NCBI GenBank assembly: GCA_001655195.1
Contig: LPNY01000021.1
Span: 93,035-157,034 of the forward strand
Direction: 5' to 3'
Origin: Arcobacter sp. EP1
GTDB taxonomy: Bacteria > Campylobacterota > Campylobacteria > Campylobacterales > Arcobacteraceae
Length of the DNA stretch: 64,000 nt
Below, in pieces: positions 5,662 to 28,932 of this stretch. The position numbers and the translations under genes were made by a program. The notes below the pieces were generated by a model that saw only the letters and a program-made list of their open reading frames with translations, did not search any database and had not been told where the DNA came from. Within the stretch, counting starts at the first letter, position 1. The number at the start of each line of letters is the position of its first letter.

Positions 5662-6660
5662 ATGACTTACGCAGCTTTTAGATCAATTGGGGCATATATC
5701 CCACCAAAAATTATGACAAATGCCGATTTCGAAAAAATTATAGATACTTCTGATGAGTGGATTACTAAACGAACAGGAATCAAAGAACGAAGAATCTCTG
5801 AAGAGAATGAAGCATCATCTGATTTAGGAGCAAAAGCTGCGCAGCAAGCCATTGAAAGAGCAGGACTAAATAAAGAGGATATTGATATGGTTGTTTGTGC
5901 AACTGTAACGCCTGACTATTTATGTATGCCTTCAACAGCATGTTTAATCGCTTCAAAACTAGACCTACCTCCTGTTCAAGCTTTTGATATTAGTGCCGCA
6001 TGTACTGGTTTTGTATATGCAGTATCAGTAGCAAAAGCCTTTATTGAATCAGGAATGAAAAAAAATGTACTAATTGTTGGTGCAGAAAAATATACTTCAA
6101 TTTTAGATTATACTGATAGAGGAACATGTTTTATCTTTGGTGATGGAGCAGGAGCAGCAATTATTTCTGCAACTGATAACAAAGAAGAAGCAATTGTTGA
6201 TGTTAGTTGTTCAAGTGATGGAAACTACGACGAGTTAATCAAAACTCCAGGTGGTGGAAGTAAACATCCATGTTCACAAGAAGTACTTGACCAAAAAATG
6301 GCATGTATTAGAATGAAAGGAAATGAAGTTTTCAAACTAGCAGTTAAAACATTAACAGCAGATGTTCAAGTAATGATGGAAAAACATAACATTACAAATG
6401 AAGATATCAACCACTTTATCCCACATCAAGCAAACTACCGAATTATTTCAGCAGTTGGAAAAGCATTAGGACTTAATGACGAGCAAACTGTTGTAACCGT
6501 GGATAAATATGGAAATACTTCAGCTGCTTCGATTCCTATGGCAATGAATTATGCTTATGAGCAAGGGAAAATTAAAGCAGGTGACAACGTTCTTTTTGAT
6601 GCTTTTGGAGCAGGACTTACGTGGGGAAGTGCACTTTTCCCATTTGCACCAAAACAATAA
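5662..6660 (+). CDS. fabH: 3-oxoacyl-ACP synthase III
   Basis: FabH (332 residues) condenses acetyl-CoA with malonyl-ACP to start fatty acid synthesis. The catalytic triad is visible: Cys in ISAACTGF, His in FIPHQAN and Asn in YGNTSAAS. It ends the plsX-fabH unit. A short hairpin (6666-6686) follows before the convergent kinase gene. Confidence 0.97.
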   Translation: MTYAAFRSIGAYIPPKIMTNADFEKIIDTSDEWITKRTGIKERRISEENEASSDLGAKAAQQAIERAGLNKEDIDMVVCATVTPDYLCMPSTACLIASKLDLPPVQAFDISAACTGFVYAVSVAKAFIESGMKKNVLIVGAEKYTSILDYTDRGTCFIFGDGAGAAIISATDNKEEAIVDVSCSSDGNYDELIKTPGGGSKHPCSQEVLDQKMACIRMKGNEVFKLAVKTLTADVQVMMEKHNITNEDINHFIPHQANYRIISAVGKALGLNDEQTVVTVDKYGNTSAASIPMAMNYAYEQGKIKAGDNVLFDAFGAGLTWGSALFPFAPKQ

Positions 6661-6665
6661 TTACT

Positions 6666-6686
6666 TTTAGAGCATTCAGCTCTAAA
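6666..6686. terminator. Possible bidirectional terminator hairpin
   Basis: An 8-bp perfect inverted repeat (TTTAGAGC / GCTCTAAA, loop ATTCA) lies between the convergent fabH and kinase genes. There is no clear T-run on either side, so the termination role is inferred from its position. Confidence 0.45.
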
Positions 6687-6708
6687 GTAGTTCACTATCT
6701 CTTTACTT

Positions 6709-8340
6709 TTAAACACTTAACTCAATTATAAATTTAGCTCCTATTGAGCTATTTTGAACCTCTATTTTTCCATTCATATTATTTTCAATAATCATTTTAG
6801 TCATATATAATCCTATTCCTGTACCTTGAGATTTGTGTTTTGTAGTAAAATACGGGTCAAAAACTTTATCTAAAATATCCTCTTTAATTCCACCAGCATT
6901 GTCTTCAATAGAGATAACAATTTTCCCCTCTTCTTCTTTTGTATCAATAAGAATCCGAGCATCTGAAACTTCTCTTTGTATTAGTATATCTTTAGCATTG
7001 GTAATTATGTTTAACAGTGCTTGTGAGAATTCATTTTTAAAACTTTCAATTTCAATATTTTCATGACTATATGATGTTGCAACTTCAATGTTAGAGGTTT
7101 TAAGACTAGAATTAACAATAAACAAGGCGCTGTTAATACAACTTTTAAGTAAAAAAATCTCTTTTTGTTTTTCGGGTTTATAATAATTTCTAAAATCTTC
7201 AATGGTTTTCGACATAAAATCAATAATAGAATTACCGTCTTTAATTTTGCTATCAAATTTTTGGGGAGTTAATTTTCCTTTTTCATTATAAGCATCTAAA
7301 TACATCAATATTGCACTTAATTGCATTAAAGGTTGACGCCACTGATGAGCAATATTTCCTATCATTTCACCCAGCATTGCAAGCTTTGATTGTTGCATGA
7401 GAAGCTGTTCACTTTTTTGTTTTTGTGTTAATGCCTCTTCTTGTATTTGTAATCTATGCTTAATTTCATTTTCAACTGTTTGTTCCAAGTTTTTATTAAT
7501 CTTTTTTAATTCCTCTTCATTTCTATTAATTCTTCTAATTAAAACTGTGAAAAAATAATTAACAATAACTGCTGCTATTAAAAAGAGTACAATTGAAGTT
7601 ATAATTGAGTTTCTAACCGTTGAGATATAATCTTTTTTCTCTTTAGTAACATCTAAAAAGAAGATTGCATTGGCGACAAGTTCTCCTTCAATATTCTTAA
7701 TGGTTAAATCTTTTTTCACATAAAACTCATCTTGAATTTCAATTACAGGTCCTTTATGAGAAGGACACTCTTCAACCATAAATTTAAATATTTCAGACTC
7801 ATAGTACTTTTTTAAATAAATATCATTGGTTCTATCATTATCGATTATATATATGATTCCATTACTACCATCAAAGTCTTTTACTGCTTTTAAAAACAGC
7901 CTAATATCAATAATATATTGAGCATAAGACTCTATCTTCTTTTTAGTCCTTATAGGAACAAGAATTTTATAAAAAACCTCTTTTTTCTTATTGGAAAAAA
8001 CATCTAATACAGTTTCATTTTTTAATAGGAGTTGCGTATATTTATTACTCTCAACTATCTTTTTTATTTCCACACTTTTTAAGAATTTATAATTATTAAG
8101 TAGCTCATTTTTAAACTCTTCATTTGTTATATTCTGGGTAGACATTTCATAATGTTGGATAAGCTTTTTTCTAAAAAGTTTACTTATGTTGTCAAAGGAT
8201 TTTTTATAGGCATTTTCTATTTGAATTAGATAGTTTTTATTGGATGTTTTATTTTGAAAATAGAGAGTTAGCAGTAAAATTGATATTAAAAGCAATATAA
8301 AAAGGGTTGCTTTTTGTTTGATACAAAGTTTTTTTCTCAT
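6709..8340 (-). CDS. Membrane histidine kinase, partner of adjacent regulator
   Basis: The 543-residue kinase has an N-terminal membrane helix (about residues 8-26), a periplasmic region of about 210 residues with a Cache-like fold by appearance, and a second membrane helix (about 245-265). A coiled coil leads to the kinase core with His332 in HQWRQP, an N-box around IITNAKDIL and glycine boxes DNAGGI and GTGIGLYM. Its ATG directly follows the stop codon of the response regulator at 8341-9009, so the two form a coupled two-component system. The ligand is unknown. The core is very similar to the four other HQW(R/K)QP kinases in the window. Confidence 0.9.
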   Translation of the reverse strand: MRKKLCIKQKATLFILLLISILLLTLYFQNKTSNKNYLIQIENAYKKSFDNISKLFRKKLIQHYEMSTQNITNEEFKNELLNNYKFLKSVEIKKIVESNKYTQLLLKNETVLDVFSNKKKEVFYKILVPIRTKKKIESYAQYIIDIRLFLKAVKDFDGSNGIIYIIDNDRTNDIYLKKYYESEIFKFMVEECPSHKGPVIEIQDEFYVKKDLTIKNIEGELVANAIFFLDVTKEKKDYISTVRNSIITSIVLFLIAAVIVNYFFTVLIRRINRNEEELKKINKNLEQTVENEIKHRLQIQEEALTQKQKSEQLLMQQSKLAMLGEMIGNIAHQWRQPLMQLSAILMYLDAYNEKGKLTPQKFDSKIKDGNSIIDFMSKTIEDFRNYYKPEKQKEIFLLKSCINSALFIVNSSLKTSNIEVATSYSHENIEIESFKNEFSQALLNIITNAKDILIQREVSDARILIDTKEEEGKIVISIEDNAGGIKEDILDKVFDPYFTTKHKSQGTGIGLYMTKMIIENNMNGKIEVQNSSIGAKFIIELSV

Positions 8341-21753: not shown

Positions 21754-21796
21754 AAGAGTTTAGGCTAACTTATCGATTCTAAGTTAGCGTACTCTT
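21754..21796. terminator. Nested inverted repeat between convergent genes
   Basis: An 8-bp perfect stem (GCTAACTT 764-771 with AAGTTAGC 781-788 in the 21 kb block) is enclosed by a second 6-bp stem (AAGAGT / ACTCTT). It lies across the end of the DUF779 gene and just after the methyltransferase stop, so it may terminate both. The T-run is weak. Confidence 0.5.
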
Positions 21797-22139
21797 CATC
21801 GGTAAAAATACGGGATTTTGTTAAAAACTGATACCCTAAATCAATCTCTAAAGAAAACGAGTTACCAAAGGCACCCTTCTCTTCTTTTACATCTATAGTG
21901 ATGTGCGAATGTTTAAAATACTCAAACTGGTCTTTATCCATAAAAAATTCACAATCACAAATTTCACCTAACTTCACGTTCCTGCTGGGCACATAAAAGT
22001 CACCCTTTTCATAACACATGGGTGCTGTTCCATCACAACATCCGCCACTTTGATTAAAAACTAATTCACCATGTTCTTCTTTTAATCTTTCTACTATTTC
22101 TACTGCCCAAGGTGTAATAGCTAATCTTTTTGTTGACAT
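21765..22139 (-). CDS. DUF779 protein linked to aldehyde dehydrogenase
   Basis: This 124-residue protein is of the DUF779 family, recognised by the NQSGGCCDGTAPMC segment with adjacent cysteines and the C-terminal FSLEIDLGYQFLT region. DUF779 genes are commonly found next to acetaldehyde or other aldehyde dehydrogenases; their biochemical role is not established. Here it lies 79 nt downstream of the dehydrogenase in the same direction. The conserved cysteines suggest metal or redox chemistry, which is inference. Confidence 0.88.
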   Translation of the reverse strand: MSTKRLAITPWAVEIVERLKEEHGELVFNQSGGCCDGTAPMCYEKGDFYVPSRNVKLGEICDCEFFMDKDQFEYFKHSHITIDVKEEKGAFGNSFSLEIDLGYQFLTKSRIFTDEEYANLESIS

Positions 22140-22218: not shown

Positions 22219-23736
22219 CTAGAAAAATCCTAATGCATTTTTAGAGTAAGAAGTTAAAATATTTTTTGTGTGTCTATAAGAGTTTAACATCATCATATGT
22301 GTCTCTCTTCCGATACCTGATTTTTTGTATCCACCAAATGATGCATGTGATGGGTACATATGGTAACAATTCACCCAAACTCGTCCTGCTTCAATTCCTC
22401 GACTAAATTTATGTAATTGGTGGGCATCTCGTGACCATACACCAGCACCAAGACCATAAATTGTATCGTTTGCAATTGCTAACGCCTCATCTTCATCTTT
22501 GAATGTTGTTACTGCTAATACTGGTCCAAAAATCTCTTCTTGGAAGATTCGCATTTTATTGTGTCCTTTAAACAGTGTTGGCTGAATGTAGTTCCCATTT
22601 GGATGGGCTTCACTATCATGTGCTTCACCACCAATGAGCACTTCAGCACCCTCTTCTTTACCAATTCGAATATAGTCTAAAATCTTCTCTTGTTGACTCG
22701 TTGAGCACTGTGCTCCCATCATACACGTAGGATCTAGTGGGTTTCCTAATTTGATTGCTTTAACACGCTCTAAAACACGCTCCATAAATGGCTCGTAAAT
22801 TGATTCTTGAATTAATGCTCGTGATGGACACGTACACACTTCACCAGAGTTAAAGGCAAATAGAACTAACCCTTCAATTGCTTTATCAAAAAACTCATCA
22901 TCTGCATCCATGATTGACTCTAAGAAAATATTTGGCGATTTTCCACCCAATTCTAAAGTTGATGGGATAATATTTTCAGTTGCGTACTGCATAATAAGTT
23001 GACCAGTCGTTGTTTCACCTGTAAACCCAACTTTTTTAATATCAGGATGCGTTGATAAATGTTTACCAATTTTTCCACCTGCACCATTGATAATATTAAC
23101 CGTTCCAGCAGGTAATACATCTTGAATTACTTCCATCATTAATAAAATAGACATTGGTGTTGCACTCGCTGGTTTCATTACAATACAATTTCCAGCTGCT
23201 AATGCAGGGGCAAGTTTCCATGCTGCCATTAAGAGTGGAAAGTTCCACGGAATAATTTGAGCCACAACACCATACGGTTCATGCACCTCTTGAGAGATAG
23301 TATTCTCATCTAAATCAGAAACTGTTCCAGATTCAGCTCGAATAACTGAAGCAAAATATCTAAAGTGATCAACTACCAATGGTACATCTGCGGCTAATGT
23401 TTCACGAACTGCTTTTCCATTATCTAATGTTTCAGCAATTGCTAGTTTCTCTAAATTTGCTTCAATAGCATCAGCAACTTTGTTTAACATGGTACTTCGC
23501 TCAACTACTGACGTGTGTTTAAAAGAAGCAAACGCTTCATTGGCAGCTTTGATTGCTAACTCAACATCCGCTTCATTTGAACGAGGAATTCGTGTTAATA
23601 CTTCTCCATCAACAGGTGAAACGTTATCAAAATACTCACCGCTTTGAGGGGCAATCCACTCGCCTCCAATAAAGTTCTCATATTGTGCTTTGTACTCTGG
23701 TTTTGCTAATGGTAATACTTTCTCTTGTGTAGACAT
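22219..23736 (-). CDS. NAD-dependent aldehyde dehydrogenase (ExaC/AldB-like)
   Basis: The 505-residue enzyme oxidises aldehydes to acids with NAD(P). It has IIPWNFPLLMAAWKLAPALA in the coenzyme-binding half, the glutamate motif LELGGKSPN, the catalytic cysteine in NSGEVCTCPSR, and EEIFGPVLAVTTF near the end. The CTCPSR variant and the DUF779 partner are typical of acetaldehyde-type enzymes (ExaC, AcoD). The start at 23736 has an AAAAGGA site; the longer frame to 23805 lacks one and does not match the family. It is divergent from the FIST kinase gene and shares its regulatory region. Confidence 0.95.
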   Translation of the reverse strand: MSTQEKVLPLAKPEYKAQYENFIGGEWIAPQSGEYFDNVSPVDGEVLTRIPRSNEADVELAIKAANEAFASFKHTSVVERSTMLNKVADAIEANLEKLAIAETLDNGKAVRETLAADVPLVVDHFRYFASVIRAESGTVSDLDENTISQEVHEPYGVVAQIIPWNFPLLMAAWKLAPALAAGNCIVMKPASATPMSILLMMEVIQDVLPAGTVNIINGAGGKIGKHLSTHPDIKKVGFTGETTTGQLIMQYATENIIPSTLELGGKSPNIFLESIMDADDEFFDKAIEGLVLFAFNSGEVCTCPSRALIQESIYEPFMERVLERVKAIKLGNPLDPTCMMGAQCSTSQQEKILDYIRIGKEEGAEVLIGGEAHDSEAHPNGNYIQPTLFKGHNKMRIFQEEIFGPVLAVTTFKDEDEALAIANDTIYGLGAGVWSRDAHQLHKFSRGIEAGRVWVNCYHMYPSHASFGGYKKSGIGRETHMMMLNSYRHTKNILTSYSKNALGFF

Positions 23737-23818: not shown

Positions 23819-23848
23819 TTTTTGTTACAATGAAATCTTACACGATAA

Positions 23849-23892
23849 ATATAGCCTCAATTTAGCCTGAATATAGCGTGAGTATAGCGATA
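23849..23892. repeat. Four tandem 11-bp repeats, probable response-regulator operator
   Basis: Four consecutive 11-bp units (starting at 23849, 23860, 23871 and 23882) fit the pattern ATATAGC(C/G)TGA with few changes. A fifth partial match (ATTTAGCCACA) starts at 23898. Tandem direct repeats spaced 11 bp are the classic binding pattern of OmpR/PhoB-type regulators (for example the Pho box). Such a regulator is encoded at 25889-26548. The array lies between the dehydrogenase and kinase genes and could control either or both. Confidence 0.65.
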
Positions 23893-23968
23893 GTAAAATT
23901 TAGCCACAAATCCCATAAAATAGGGACTTTTTTACTCTATTTTTTTATAAAAATTCCTGTTTTTATGC

Positions 23969-23974
23969 TACAAT
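23969..23974 (+). promoter_or_regulatory. -10 element of FIST kinase operon
   Basis: TACAAT ends 7 nt before the ATG at 23982 and there is no ribosome site between them, so the predicted transcript starts at or next to the start codon (leaderless). Confidence 0.5.
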
Positions 23975-23981
23975 CTTTCTC

Positions 23982-25892
23982 ATGAAAACCTATAATTACT
24001 CTTTAAATAGCGAAAAACTAGAAAGCATAATCGATTTTGAATCCTTTTATGACGAAGAAAATATTCTTATCCAAATTTTTTGTGGGGAACCTCATACTAT
24101 TTTAGAAAAGAGCATCAATCAACTGCTTGATTTTTTACCTCAAGCTATCTGTATTGGTACAACAACCGATGGCGAAATAAATGACTCCCATGTAAGTACA
24201 TCTAAAACTGTTATTTCTCTTTCAACCTTTGAAAATACAATCGTTAAAACTGATTTTGTTAACTCTAATAACTCCTTTGATAATGGAAAAGCATTAGCAC
24301 AAAAACTTGTCACATCCAATACCCAACTACTCATTTTATTTACAGATGGTACCACTACTAACGGAGAAGAGTTTTTAAAAGGGATTGAAAGCTTTGATTC
24401 CAATGTACTTATTTGTGGAGGAATGGCAGGAGATAATGGAGCCTTTACCCAAACCTATATTTCCAGTCAGAATACTCTACTAAAAAAGGGTGCTGTGGGA
24501 GTATCCTTAAACTCAAACAGTTTAAAAGTACACAATGACTACCGCTTTAACTGGTCTCCTATTGGTATTGAGCACACCATTGATACCATTCAAGATAACC
24601 GTGTTTACAGTATCAATGGCATGACACCTGTTGATTTTTATGCAAAATATCTAGGCGTTGAAGTTGCCAGTGCACTACCTGCAACAGGGATTGAATTTCC
24701 TCTTATTGTCGAGAGAAATGGTATTTTAACAGCCCGTGCCGTTATTGCTAAACATGATGATGGCAGTGTTAGTTTTGCAGGAAACCTCAAAGAAGGCGAC
24801 AACGTAAAATTAGGGTTTGGAAATGCTGAGATGATTATGCAAAATCCCATGGAGACGTTCCATGATCTTTCAAATATCAATGCACAAACCTTTTATCTTT
24901 ATTCCTGTATGGCACGACGTCGTTACATGCCTGATTTTATTCAAGTGGAAGTTGAACCTTTTGCTAAAATAGCCCCAACGGCTGGTTTTTTTACCTATGC
25001 AGAGTTTTATCATAATAAAGGGCACAATCAACTGCTCAATCAAACGTTAACAGTGGTAGCCTTAAGTGAAAGCAACCAAGCCATTACATCAAAACAGCAC
25101 ATTGATGAGATACCAAAAAAGACTCAACACTCTGAGTATTCACGAACCATTAAAGCACTAACCCATTTAATCCAACAAGCATCCAGTGATTATGATACGC
25201 AGACTAAAAAACTTAATCTCGAAAAAAGTTATTCTCAAAGTCTCTTAGCTTCACAAAAAAAGTTTTTGCGTCATGCGGTGCATGAAACCAATACTCCACT
25301 CTCTGTTATCATGGGAAATATTGAGTTATATGAGTTAGAGTTTGGAAAGAATAAATATCTTAGTAACATCGAAGTTGCTATGAAAAATACTTTCTCTATT
25401 TATGATGATTTGAGTTATTTAGTGAAAAAAGACCAAATCCAATACACCATTCAATCCATCGATTTAGCAGATTTTGTACGAAGCAGAATTGATTTCTTCT
25501 CACAAGTTGCCCTACAAGTAAAATCAAAGTTTATTTTCACAACAGATAAAGAGTCTATGAGAATAGAGTTTAACGATACTAAACTGCAACGTATCATTGA
25601 TAATAACCTCACCAATGCTATTAAATATACCTTTGAAAATGAGAATATTTATGTACACTTACAAGAACAAAAATATCACTATATTTTAAAAATCTCTAGC
25701 CACTCAAGTGTAATTCAAGAACCTCAAAAGATTTTTGATGAATACTATAGGGAAGAGAAAGTCCAAGAAGGTTTTGGATTAGGACTCAATCTTGTTAAAC
25801 GTATTTGTGATGAAGAAGATGTGAAAATCAAACTTGAATCAACTATTGAAAAAACCTGTTTTACCTACACTTTTAAAAAGGAACACTCATGA
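23982..25892 (+). CDS. Cytoplasmic FIST-domain histidine kinase
   Basis: This 636-residue protein has no membrane segment. The N-terminal half is a FIST sensor (FIST_N about residues 20-210, with ICIGTTTDGEI and LICGGMAGDNG; FIST_C about 220-365, with SCMARRRYM). A coiled coil leads to a HisKA-type domain with His434 in HETNTPLS and an ATPase domain with N-box NNLTNAIKYT and final glycine box GFGLGLNLVKRI. The usual DxGxG box is not recognisable; ISSHSSVIQ stands in its place. FIST domains are thought to sense small molecules such as amino acids. It overlaps the regulator gene by 4 nt (ATGA) and is divergent from the aldehyde dehydrogenase. Its core differs from that of the HQWRQP kinases in the window. 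Confidence 0.9.
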   Translation: MKTYNYSLNSEKLESIIDFESFYDEENILIQIFCGEPHTILEKSINQLLDFLPQAICIGTTTDGEINDSHVSTSKTVISLSTFENTIVKTDFVNSNNSFDNGKALAQKLVTSNTQLLILFTDGTTTNGEEFLKGIESFDSNVLICGGMAGDNGAFTQTYISSQNTLLKKGAVGVSLNSNSLKVHNDYRFNWSPIGIEHTIDTIQDNRVYSINGMTPVDFYAKYLGVEVASALPATGIEFPLIVERNGILTARAVIAKHDDGSVSFAGNLKEGDNVKLGFGNAEMIMQNPMETFHDLSNINAQTFYLYSCMARRRYMPDFIQVEVEPFAKIAPTAGFFTYAEFYHNKGHNQLLNQTLTVVALSESNQAITSKQHIDEIPKKTQHSEYSRTIKALTHLIQQASSDYDTQTKKLNLEKSYSQSLLASQKKFLRHAVHETNTPLSVIMGNIELYELEFGKNKYLSNIEVAMKNTFSIYDDLSYLVKKDQIQYTIQSIDLADFVRSRIDFFSQVALQVKSKFIFTTDKESMRIEFNDTKLQRIIDNNLTNAIKYTFENENIYVHLQEQKYHYILKISSHSSVIQEPQKIFDEYYREEKVQEGFGLGLNLVKRICDEEDVKIKLESTIEKTCFTYTFKKEHS

Positions 25893-26548
25893 AAATCCTA
25901 CTGCTTGAAGATGATAGTATGCTCAATGATGCCATTACTCAATATTTACAATCGGTGGGTCATGCCATCATCTCTTCACGAGATGGGGAGAGTTGTCTAA
26001 AAATCTTAGAAGAAGAGAAGTTTGATTTACTGATTTTAGATATCAACCTACCTGATATTGATGGATTTACTATCTTAGAAAAACTGCACGAACAAAAACG
26101 TATGGTTCCTACTATTTTTATCTCAGCTCTCATTGATATTGAAGAGATTAGTCGTGCTTTTGATATTGGGTGTCATGACTATTTAAAAAAACCCTTTCAT
26201 TTAAAAGAGCTCAATTTACGTATCAATAAAATTCTCAAAACGGGTGTTGTTCCAACGCAACATAAACGTCTGTCAAAATCCTATAGTTTTGATGCGCAAA
26301 CCATGACCCTTTACTTTAATAATGAACCCCATATTTTACCAAAACGACAGCTTTTGATTATTGCACTATTAGCAAAAAACCGAAGCTTAGTAGTTAATTA
26401 TGATATGTTTAGAGAATATGCCTATGAAGATGAAGATATTGATAATGCAACCATTCGAGCAGAAGTCAATCGTGTAAAAAAAGTTCTCAAAGAGGATTTC
26501 ATCGTTAACATTCGAGGTATTGGTTATATGGTGGAAAGACCTGAGTGA
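25889..26548 (+). CDS. OmpR/PhoB-family response regulator of the FIST system
   Basis: The protein (219 residues) has a receiver domain with acidic Asp8-Asp9, phospho-accepting Asp51 in LILDINLP, and Lys101 in LKKPF. A winged-helix DNA-binding domain follows (about 130-217), ending NIRGIGYMVERPE. The start overlaps the kinase stop, so both are coupled. Its family binds 11-bp tandem repeats, as found upstream at 23849-23892, making autoregulation and control of the divergent aldehyde dehydrogenase a reasonable inference. Confidence 0.94.
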   Translation: MKILLLEDDSMLNDAITQYLQSVGHAIISSRDGESCLKILEEEKFDLLILDINLPDIDGFTILEKLHEQKRMVPTIFISALIDIEEISRAFDIGCHDYLKKPFHLKELNLRINKILKTGVVPTQHKRLSKSYSFDAQTMTLYFNNEPHILPKRQLLIIALLAKNRSLVVNYDMFREYAYEDEDIDNATIRAEVNRVKKVLKEDFIVNIRGIGYMVERPE

Positions 26549-26650: not shown

Positions 26651-26851
26651 ATGAAACTAATCATAAATGGTGTTGAAAAAGAGTTTGAAGAGAACAGTAC
26701 ACTTCAAACTATTATCACCTCGTTAGAGATTGAAGACAAAGTTATGGCAGCAGCAGTTAACATGGAAATCGTAAAGAAAGACCAGTGGGCACAATATTGT
26801 CCAGTAAACGATGATAAACTAGAATTACTACAATTTGTTGGTGGTGGTTGA
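26651..26851 (+). CDS. ThiS/MoaD-like sulfur carrier protein
   Basis: This 66-residue protein has a ubiquitin-like pattern (MKLIINGVEKEF, then NSTLQTIITSL) and ends in VGGG, the double-glycine tail that carries thiocarboxylate sulfur in ThiS. ThiS donates sulfur to thiamine synthesis. The adjacent gene codes for a molybdenum enzyme rather than thiazole synthase, so a role in sulfur supply to that enzyme or its cofactor is possible but unproven. A weak GGGGCAG site precedes the ATG. The next gene starts 3 nt after its stop. Confidence 0.8.
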   Translation: MKLIINGVEKEFEENSTLQTIITSLEIEDKVMAAAVNMEIVKKDQWAQYCPVNDDKLELLQFVGGG

Positions 26852-26853
26852 TT

Positions 26854-28932
26854 ATGATTGCAGATATTAACTCCGTATGTACCTACTGTGGTGTTGGATG
26901 TGACATCACTGGACAAGTCAAAGATAATAAGATTCTAAAAATCTACGCACAAAATGATGGATATGTTTCGCAAGGGAAGCTTTGTATCAAAGGTGCAAAA
27001 GGATTTGGTTTTGTGGATGCACCTGAGAGAATCAGAAATGCCAGAGTCAAAAAATCATTCTTAGAAAAAAACTTTGAATTATTACCTCAAGAGCTCAAAG
27101 CACGAACACGAACACTCAAATCATTTGATGAAGAGTATTATGAAACACCGTATGAGTTTACCACTTCACTAGCCGCATGGAAGCTTACTCAAATCAAAGA
27201 GAAATATGGAAGACACGCCTTTTGTGGTATGGGAGGAGCACGAACATCATGTGAGAGTTCATACATGTTCCAAAAGTTTGTGCGCGAAGGAATGGATTCA
27301 CCACACGTAGATTGTTGTGCCAGAGTATGTCATAGTCCAAGTTTAAAAGGGATGAAACCCCTCATTGGTGAAGGAGCAGCAACCAATCCATTTGATGATA
27401 TTTATGAGACAGAAAATATTATTATCATGGGTTCAAATACCACTGAAGCACACCCTATTGTTGCCAATAGAATTTTAAAAGCGGCAAAAGCAAAAAGTGC
27501 AACTCTGTCAGTTATTGATGTACGAAATATCCAAATTGGGAAATATGGAGAAGAGCTCGTTATCCCTTATGAAGCAAACCTATTAGTATTAAATATGATG
27601 GCATACGTGATACTAACAGAAAAACTTTACAATAATGAATTTATCGATGCAAGATGTGAAGGTTTTGAAGAGTATAAAGAGTCAATTTTAAATGACCCAT
27701 TTGCCAACCCTGAATACATGCGAAATATCACTGGCTATGAACACTTAGCCGATCAAATTCCACAAATAGCACGGCAATATGCAACTAAAAAATCCATGTT
27801 CTTCTGGGGACTTGGAATTTCTGAACATTTAGATGGTTCGTATGCTGTTATGGCAATTGTTCATTTAGCACTTTTAACAGGGAATATTGGTAAAACTGGA
27901 ACTGGTCTTATGCCACTACGAGGTCAAAACAATGTACAAGGGGCTTGTGATACGGGATGTCTCCCCTACTTTGACCCTGATTATCAAGATGCTAAAGAAG
28001 TGGGTCTAATGACACCACAACTTATTGATGAGATGTTAAAAGACAAGGTAAAAGCCATGTATGTTATGGGAGAAGATATTGCACACATTCACCCAAATCA
28101 AAACAAAATCCATAAAGCTTTAGAGCATTTAGAGCTGATTATTTCCAATGAACTATTTATGAACGAAATCACAAAAAAAGCTGACATTATTTTTGGTGTA
28201 AAATCAGCTTACGAAAAAACAGGTGTTTATGTAAATGCTATGCGACGACTGCACCTTTCTCAGCCACTTGTGGAAGCCGATATGCCAGACGACTGGGAAG
28301 TACTACGAGATATTGAAAACAAAATCAAAGGTGAGTTTGTTTATGAAACCAGTGAAGATGTTTGGAATGAAACAAAAGAAGCTGTTGGATCAAGGTATTC
28401 TGGCGCAACCTATCATAAGTTATCAAAAAACAGAAACCGCGGAATGCAGTGGCCAATTAAAAAAGAAGATACCCCAGTACTTCATCTAGAAGAGTTTAGA
28501 ACACCAAGTGGAAAAGGGTATTTCCAATACCACCAATACAAACTACGAGAGCAAATTGAAAAATTAGTGAAAAATATCAAAACTCCTGATAATGAGTTCT
28601 ATTTAACAACAGGTAGAACAATCGTGCACTATAATAATGCGGCACAAACACGCCACAGTGAAGCTCTAAACTCGCGCTATGACAAAGATATTGTCTTAGC
28701 TTCTAAAGAGGATAAAGAGAAAATTGGTAGTGACCAAATCATCATTCGATCAGAGTATGGTGAGACAGCTGTTCTACCAGTTAGATATACAAAAAATATC
28801 AAACCGGGAACACTGTTTACAACCTTCCATCATCCTGAATCAAAAGTAAACTTTGTCTTTGGAGATGAAGCCGATGAACTGATTATGACTGCACGTTTTA
28901 AATCAGTGCGAGTGGATATTGAGCCGGTCTAA
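26854..28932 (+). CDS. Molybdopterin formate dehydrogenase catalytic subunit, Cys type
   Basis: The 692-residue protein has an N-terminal 4Fe-4S site (Cys9, Cys12, Cys16 and a fourth in KLCIKG) and the formate dehydrogenase active-site segment VDCCARVCHSPSLKG. Cys159 takes the place of the selenocysteine of E. coli FdhF, followed by His160. Later motifs include PLRGQNNVQGACD and the C-terminal cofactor domain with TGRTIVHYNNAAQTR. It is the size of FdhF (FDH-H-like), not a membrane-exported FdnG type, and has no Tat signal, so it should act in the cytoplasm. The ATG at 26854 was preferred over a TTG at 26848. Related molybdoenzymes (assimilatory nitrate reductase) are less likely because of the ARVCH motif. 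No electron-transfer subunit is adjacent. Confidence 0.88.
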   Translation: MIADINSVCTYCGVGCDITGQVKDNKILKIYAQNDGYVSQGKLCIKGAKGFGFVDAPERIRNARVKKSFLEKNFELLPQELKARTRTLKSFDEEYYETPYEFTTSLAAWKLTQIKEKYGRHAFCGMGGARTSCESSYMFQKFVREGMDSPHVDCCARVCHSPSLKGMKPLIGEGAATNPFDDIYETENIIIMGSNTTEAHPIVANRILKAAKAKSATLSVIDVRNIQIGKYGEELVIPYEANLLVLNMMAYVILTEKLYNNEFIDARCEGFEEYKESILNDPFANPEYMRNITGYEHLADQIPQIARQYATKKSMFFWGLGISEHLDGSYAVMAIVHLALLTGNIGKTGTGLMPLRGQNNVQGACDTGCLPYFDPDYQDAKEVGLMTPQLIDEMLKDKVKAMYVMGEDIAHIHPNQNKIHKALEHLELIISNELFMNEITKKADIIFGVKSAYEKTGVYVNAMRRLHLSQPLVEADMPDDWEVLRDIENKIKGEFVYETSEDVWNETKEAVGSRYSGATYHKLSKNRNRGMQWPIKKEDTPVLHLEEFRTPSGKGYFQYHQYKLREQIEKLVKNIKTPDNEFYLTTGRTIVHYNNAAQTRHSEALNSRYDKDIVLASKEDKEKIGSDQIIIRSEYGETAVLPVRYTKNIKPGTLFTTFHHPESKVNFVFGDEADELIMTARFKSVRVDIEPV

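Follow-up and report, generated by a model that had tools for sequence, protein, structure and literature searches.

In the 64,000-nucleotide stretch of Arcobacter sp. EP1 DNA analyzed here (the window), an aldehyde dehydrogenase operon on the minus strand and a histidine kinase/response regulator operon on the plus strand are divergently oriented, with an array of four tandem 11-bp repeats in between. This arrangement raises the question of which promoter the repeats serve, which regulator recognizes them, and what the FIST domain of the kinase senses.

The divergent locus and its repeat array

Domain matches supported the gene assignments made in an earlier sequence-only reading of this DNA, namely a FIST-HisKA-HATPase kinase, a REC-Trans_reg_C regulator, an aldehyde dehydrogenase, and a DUF779 protein. 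The locus comprises the following features.

21765 to 22139, minus strand: DUF779 protein, second gene of the target operon (PF05610, 131.5 bits)
22219 to 23736, minus strand: ExaC-like aldehyde dehydrogenase (ald), the target gene (PF00171, 519 bits)
23835 to 23842, minus strand: predicted extended -10 element of the ald promoter, TG-TAAGAT (alignment conservation and pattern match)
23849 to 23892, minus strand: putative tandem operator of four 11-bp units (repeat, alignment, and shuffle evidence)
23969 to 23974, plus strand: predicted -10 element of the kinase/regulator operon, TACAAT, 7 nt upstream of the start codon (conserved in the alignment)
23982 to 25892, plus strand: soluble FIST histidine kinase (domain matches and orthologues)
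25889 to 26548, plus strand: OmpR/PhoB-type response regulator, presumed to bind the operator (PF00072 and PF00486, both over cut-off)

The ald product gave its best score among all models with the ExaC equivalog NF050026 (845.4 bits), which is below the cut-off of 900, and we therefore label it only ExaC-like. DUF779 is linked to ald in nearly all relatives; judged by title and abstract, neither of the two papers found to mention DUF779 concerns its function. The kinase contains FIST_N (residues 29–214, 131.9 bits) and FIST_C (217–344, 73.6 bits), both over cut-off, followed by HisKA (425–485) and HATPase (533–633) domains. Its stop codon is overlapped by 4 bp by the start of the regulator, in which a receiver domain (PF00072, 89.7 bits) with the phospho-acceptor Asp51 in the motif LLILDINLPD, conserved in the alignment, precedes a winged-helix DNA-binding domain (Trans_reg_C, PF00486, 28.9 bits against a cut-off of 26.2). 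Because the -10 element of this operon lies only 7 nt from the ATG, we predict a kinase mRNA with no leader or almost none. In relatives, TACAAT is found comparably near the ATG (23969–23982 in the window). Downstream of the regulator, positions 26651–28932 hold a thiS-like gene and a formate-dehydrogenase-type molybdoenzyme, a neighborhood kept in some relatives only.

The four units of the array are, in order, ATATAGCCTCA, ATTTAGCCTGA, ATATAGCGTGA, and GTATAGCGATA. The best 4 × 11 self-identity was 51/66, at about 23846, compared with maxima of 45 when the intergenic region was dinucleotide-shuffled 5000 times, never equaling the array, and 44 when the whole window was shuffled 100 times. 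These data confirm the tandem repeats as real and rule out a chance repeat. The consensus first proposed for them, ATATAGC(C/G)TGA, describes units 1, 2, and 4 only approximately, the core common to all four being T(A/T)TAGC. A fifth match claimed at 23898 could not be upheld, as it breaks the register, lying 16 bp on, and is not kept in relatives. Read on the ald strand, the half-sites are GCTATA (23855–23850), GCTAAA (23866–23861), GCTATA (23877–23872), and GCTATA (23888–23883).

To place the array in a comparative context, full-length kinase orthologues with their neighborhoods were retrieved from 60 relatives. The divergent ald-DUF779/kinase-regulator layout was present at 16 loci, including that of the window; at one of them (L041), the contig ends before DUF779. 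TAGC-type cores at an 11-bp pitch were kept in all 16, with spacings of exactly 11, 11, 11 in 12 loci (one of which has six units), 11, 12, 11 in three, and two of the four units decayed in the remaining one. The rest of the intergenic region has mostly diverged. Judged by this phylogenetic footprint, the array is functional. We also examined 80 named loci from public genomes of Arcobacter, Malaciobacter, Poseidonibacter, Halarcobacter, Sulfurospirillum, Sulfurimonas, Sulfurovum, Sulfuricurvum, and others. Two units followed by N9 and TAnnnT occurred in 41/41 named Campylobacterota loci in which ald or a molybdenum oxidoreductase gene diverges from a FIST kinase, although this set overlaps in part with the genomes of the 60 relatives. 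The expectation that the repeats persist wherever the gene pair is kept was thus met in both sets, with one locus partly decayed in the first and the full operator plus -10 element in all of the second.

The alignments revealed a common promoter grammar on the ald strand, GCTA(T/A)A-N5-GCTATA-N9-TAnnAT, usually with an extended TG ahead of the -10 hexamer; the example in the window is GCTAAATTGAGGCTATATTTATCGTGTAAGAT (23866 to 23835, minus strand). The last half-site ends exactly 9 bp before the -10 hexamer and thus occupies the place of the -35 hexamer. In PhoB-activated promoters, a half-site likewise takes the -35 place, the pho box having an 11-bp pitch and lying about 9–10 bp from the -10 element.

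Alcohol and aldehyde oxidation genes under the same promoter grammar

The pattern GCTAWW-N5-GCTAWW-N9-TANNNT gave 93 sites in 31 genomes, compared with 5 for the reversed control, and in the inspected loci these sites mostly precede alcohol/aldehyde genes. The targets there include ExaC-like ald, PQQ-dependent alcohol dehydrogenase (PQQ-ADH) of the methanol/ethanol family (TIGR03075, 798 bits), cytochrome c550 PedF, PQQ transporters, molybdopterin aldehyde oxidoreductase (Mo-AOR; NF045668, 1609 bits), and W-AOR-like genes. The latter carry the AFOR_N/AFOR_C domains of the tungsten aldehyde:ferredoxin oxidoreductase family and are probably tungsten aldehyde oxidoreductases. An XdhC-related target matched the model of the AOR maturation factor only weakly (32.5 bits against 350). 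Further targets are a PQQ-associated beta-propeller, substrate-binding proteins, and, in some genomes, pqqB or pqqC. The genomes with PQQ-ADH, 10 of the 60, are precisely those with site clusters at these genes. The enzymes of the regulon are chemically unrelated, and all oxidize alcohols or aldehydes.

Seen from the kinase, an alcohol/aldehyde oxidation gene lies within about 7 kb in 39 of 48 complete named kinase loci with adequate flanks. No obvious target was found at the other nine, two of which (L199 and L218) adjoin a gene for a DVU_1551-family NTP transferase, presumably involved in aldehyde-oxidoreductase maturation. Three chemoreceptors with FIST domains, two of them Pfam-confirmed, are under the same promoter as ald in Sulfurospirillum- and Sulfuricurvum-type genomes:

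L200, 9611 to 11611: FIST-domain chemoreceptor, same promoter
L223, 9523 to 11517: FIST-domain chemoreceptor, same promoter
L243: FIST-domain chemoreceptor, same promoter

In the window's own genome, the full site was found only at ald, with no other strong target.

Since the same grammar recurs at the promoters of PQQ-ADH, Mo and probable W oxidoreductases, and FIST chemoreceptors, we regard activation of alcohol/aldehyde oxidation by the linked OmpR-type regulator as most likely, a prediction for which there are no binding data. The conserved sites support the earlier suggestion that the two-component system controls aldehyde oxidation, and they widen its scope beyond the dehydrogenase and DUF779 to PQQ alcohol dehydrogenases and two further aldehyde oxidoreductase classes. 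No publication on this regulon was found in the open-access papers searched. As far as titles and abstracts reveal, searches on FIST with aldehyde dehydrogenase and on Sulfurospirillum/Arcobacter regulators of these genes returned nothing relevant.

Taken together, we consider it likely that the linked regulator uses the array as a tandem operator at the ald promoter and that the FIST kinase senses the regulon's aldehyde or a close relative. The phosphorylated regulator would bind the GCTATA half-sites as one or two head-to-tail dimers at 11-bp spacing, fill the -35 region 9 bp upstream of the extended -10 element, and recruit RNA polymerase for transcription of ald-DUF779, as PhoB does at the pho box. 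The comparison of genomes establishes the array, the promoter grammar, their conservation, the membership of the regulon, and the mobility of the array with its target gene (see below). Binding of the regulator, and activation rather than repression, are inferred without binding or transcription data. The likeness to the PhoB system extends to a REC plus winged-helix regulator and to direct half-sites at an 11-bp pitch replacing the -35 element, whereas the half-site here is GCTATA, the regulon is one of alcohol/aldehyde oxidation, and the sensor is a soluble FIST protein, not PhoR.

The FIST sensor and its candidate signal

To our knowledge, few ligands have been assigned to FIST sensors beyond NO and heme. 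We modeled the FIST part of the kinase from 44 sequences (pLDDT 87.6, pTM 0.89). A fold search with this model identified human FBXO22 as the nearest among solved structures (Z 20.9 over 260 residues, 3.2 Å), far above the chorismatase and cyanuric acid hydrolase folds (Z about 12). A sequence-only PDB search with the FIST part gave no real match, and FBXO22 was found by the fold search only. Aldehydes form a reversible adduct with Cys326 of FBXO22, which is abolished in C326A (PMC11208438); the hemithioacetal is supported by cryo-EM density, and E362A ablates function (PMC13316043). Both residues have counterparts in the kinase:

24906 to 24908, plus strand: codon of Cys309, counterpart of FBXO22 Cys326 (Pfam profile mapping)
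25002 to 25004, plus strand: codon of Glu341, counterpart of FBXO22 Glu362 (Pfam profile mapping)

In the Pfam FIST_C profile, Cys309 and Cys326 both fall on position 92, and Glu341 and Glu362 both on position 128. This mapping placed the kinase from residue 306 onward and FBXO22 residues 324–364 on the profile, the FBXO22 numbering being fixed by an exact match in the PDB, and positions were counted from the aligned ranges; the equivalence rests on the profile, without residue-level superposition. The clean Cys/Glu mapping came from the Pfam profile. An attempt with a 48-residue FBXO22 segment against the profile of our alignment A3 was insignificant and was discarded, having fallen on the pseudo-symmetric FIST_N repeat. 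A second pair at similar spacing occurs in FIST_N, Cys34 (40/44) and Glu65 (44/44).

Cys309 and Glu341 are invariant in 44/44 kinases and also occur in the co-regulated FIST chemoreceptors. They are conserved across FIST_C proteins generally, so the pair supports a general chemistry, not one specific to the aldehyde-linked kinases. These comparisons suggest that the soluble kinase may be a cytoplasmic sensor of the aldehyde that the regulon eliminates, or of a closely related compound, and that the trigger could be a reversible hemithioacetal at Cys309, helped by Glu341. The regulatory link is strong; sensing via Cys309 is an inference. In the absence of ligand data, we lean only slightly toward an aldehyde as the signal, and a Cys309 adduct as the trigger remains tentative. 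More speculative still is the idea that FIST is an ancient aldehyde-sensing fold in which a reversible hemithioacetal of metabolic aldehydes at the invariant FIST_C Cys-Glu pair drives bacterial kinases and chemoreceptors, with the same chemistry behind the aldehyde reactivity of human FBXO22. FBXO22 shares the fold and has its Cys/Glu pair at identical positions of the FIST_C profile, but it is a substrate adaptor of an E3 ligase, and the aldehydes shown to react with it are drug-like ligands, with no physiological aldehyde sensing shown. The defined operator, the phylum-wide regulon, and the candidate reactive cysteine allow simple, direct tests of what FIST domains sense, and the matching cysteine in a human family member makes the long-unknown signal of FIST sensors testable. 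Aldehyde sensing, if true, would offer a clue to the natural role of FBXO22 Cys326.

The same circuit could instead respond to an alcohol, to the acid product, or to a redox consequence of oxidation. This is rather unlikely in our judgment, but PQQ alcohol dehydrogenases do belong to the regulon, and the corresponding Pseudomonas cluster is alcohol-induced (PMC12997753). Its weakness lies in Sulfurospirillum-type genomes, in which the linked targets are aldehyde oxidoreductases, and in G055, which lacks PQQ-ADH; the FBXO22 comparison also favors an aldehyde. The Pseudomonas ped/exa system (PedS1/ErcS', ErcS, AgmR/ErbR) is alike in controlling PQQ-ADH, cytochrome c550, and aldehyde dehydrogenase. 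It differs in that the FIST protein is separate, the kinases are hybrids, and the regulator is of the LuxR type. That FIST protein (NosP/PP_2663) adjoins a soluble kinase (PMC12997753) and has been proposed to sense NO; an aldehyde-sensing FIST kinase would, if true, bear on its unresolved role.

NO is the basis of a further alternative, in which the kinase is a NosP-like heme/NO sensor that tunes respiratory oxidation to NO or redox state. Heme/NO binding has been reported for the FIST proteins NosP and CdpA (PMC12570481, PMC8846402), which qualifies the earlier description of the FIST kinase as having no assigned ligand, and the standalone FIST protein of the ped cluster is itself NosP. This option appears improbable for the kinase, which scored 65.1 bits against the NosP equivalog model, far under the cut-off of 450, and no NO or heme gene was seen among the regulon genes inspected. 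In NosP-NahK/NosK, a FIST domain also modulates a histidine kinase, but in the window it is fused to the kinase, and the output is a DNA-binding regulator, not c-di-GMP turnover.

An association of FIST proteins with oxidation genes that would accord with aldehyde sensing is also seen outside the Campylobacterota. Plasmid clusters of lanthanide methanol dehydrogenase (xoxF5), PQQ, and formaldehyde-oxidation genes in Ruegeria and Sagittula (L275, L276) contain a FIST protein next to a PAS-domain protein and a regulator. Other plasmid FIST proteins, in Azospirillum and Sulfurovum, lie beside signaling genes, with no alcohol/aldehyde oxidation enzymes, and the link is therefore recurrent, not universal.

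Mobility of the array and the identity of its regulator

The array was present at ald in 19/20 genomes with both ald and the kinase pair and in 0/3 genomes with ald but without such a kinase (chance about 0.002 by the hypergeometric formula, relatedness ignored). G055 carries ald without an array, and the kinase-less genomes G009 and G026 show just one half-site-like match, at the right spacing. In two genomes (G003 and G021), ald lies on a different contig from the kinase pair; the array stays at ald (GGCTATATTCAGGCTATAAAATAATAGTAGAAT in G003), with none at the kinase loci. G043 has a co-directional gene arrangement, with the sites upstream of ald. No array was found at kinase copies not beside ald (L043, L047, L051–L055). 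On this distribution, the array belongs to the target promoter and follows the target gene.

Related systems without a FIST kinase bear on the identity of the regulator:

L244 to L247, near 6630 to 6750: Sulfurovum-type regulators divergent from a TAXI-type transporter, same operator grammar
L258, 7612 to 12184 (G000 C38): paralogous two-component system beside a VC_2705-type sodium/solute symporter, one-mismatch site

The Sulfurovum regulators are of the same subfamily and are paired with short membrane kinases without FIST; the same operator precedes the transporter. The C38-type system is in the window's own genome, with a regulator 54% identical to the linked one and the one-mismatch site before the symporter. 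Operator recognition is common to the wider regulator subfamily, and the regulator cannot be identified from the operator alone, because non-FIST systems share it and this paralogue exists. Both facts leave a little room for a paralogous regulator, such as that of the C38-type system, being the main binder of the operator in place of the linked one. We consider this very unlikely given the divergent linkage of ald and the kinase pair in many genera and the restriction of ald arrays to genomes with the linked pair, even though the kinase-less G009 and G026 have the paralogue as well. The idea that the repeats, which sit between two divergent promoters, do no more than autoregulate the kinase operon, or that they are a structural repeat or arose by chance, can be practically discarded, because the array travels with ald, not the kinase, as the unlinked and co-directional loci demonstrate, and the shuffles exclude chance.

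Second FIST kinase/regulator copies, without ald, occur between a methyltransferase gene and thiS/yraN (L052–L055, L236; the array is absent in L052–L055).

Finally, one genome contains a diverged version of the circuit, and no further decarboxylase-linked FIST kinases were found in the family beyond it:

L234, 4462 to 8724: FIST kinase pair and divergent operon

The operon encodes an indole/phenylpyruvate decarboxylase, a transporter, an aminotransferase, and an aldehyde dehydrogenase; the pathway passes through an aldehyde. The operon's promoter sequence is GCCATT-TTCAT-GCGATA-N9-TATACT, and the recognition-helix region of the L234 regulator reads TITSEIYR in place of the usual TIRAE(V/I)NR. 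Operator and regulator appear to have changed together, as far as a single genome can indicate.
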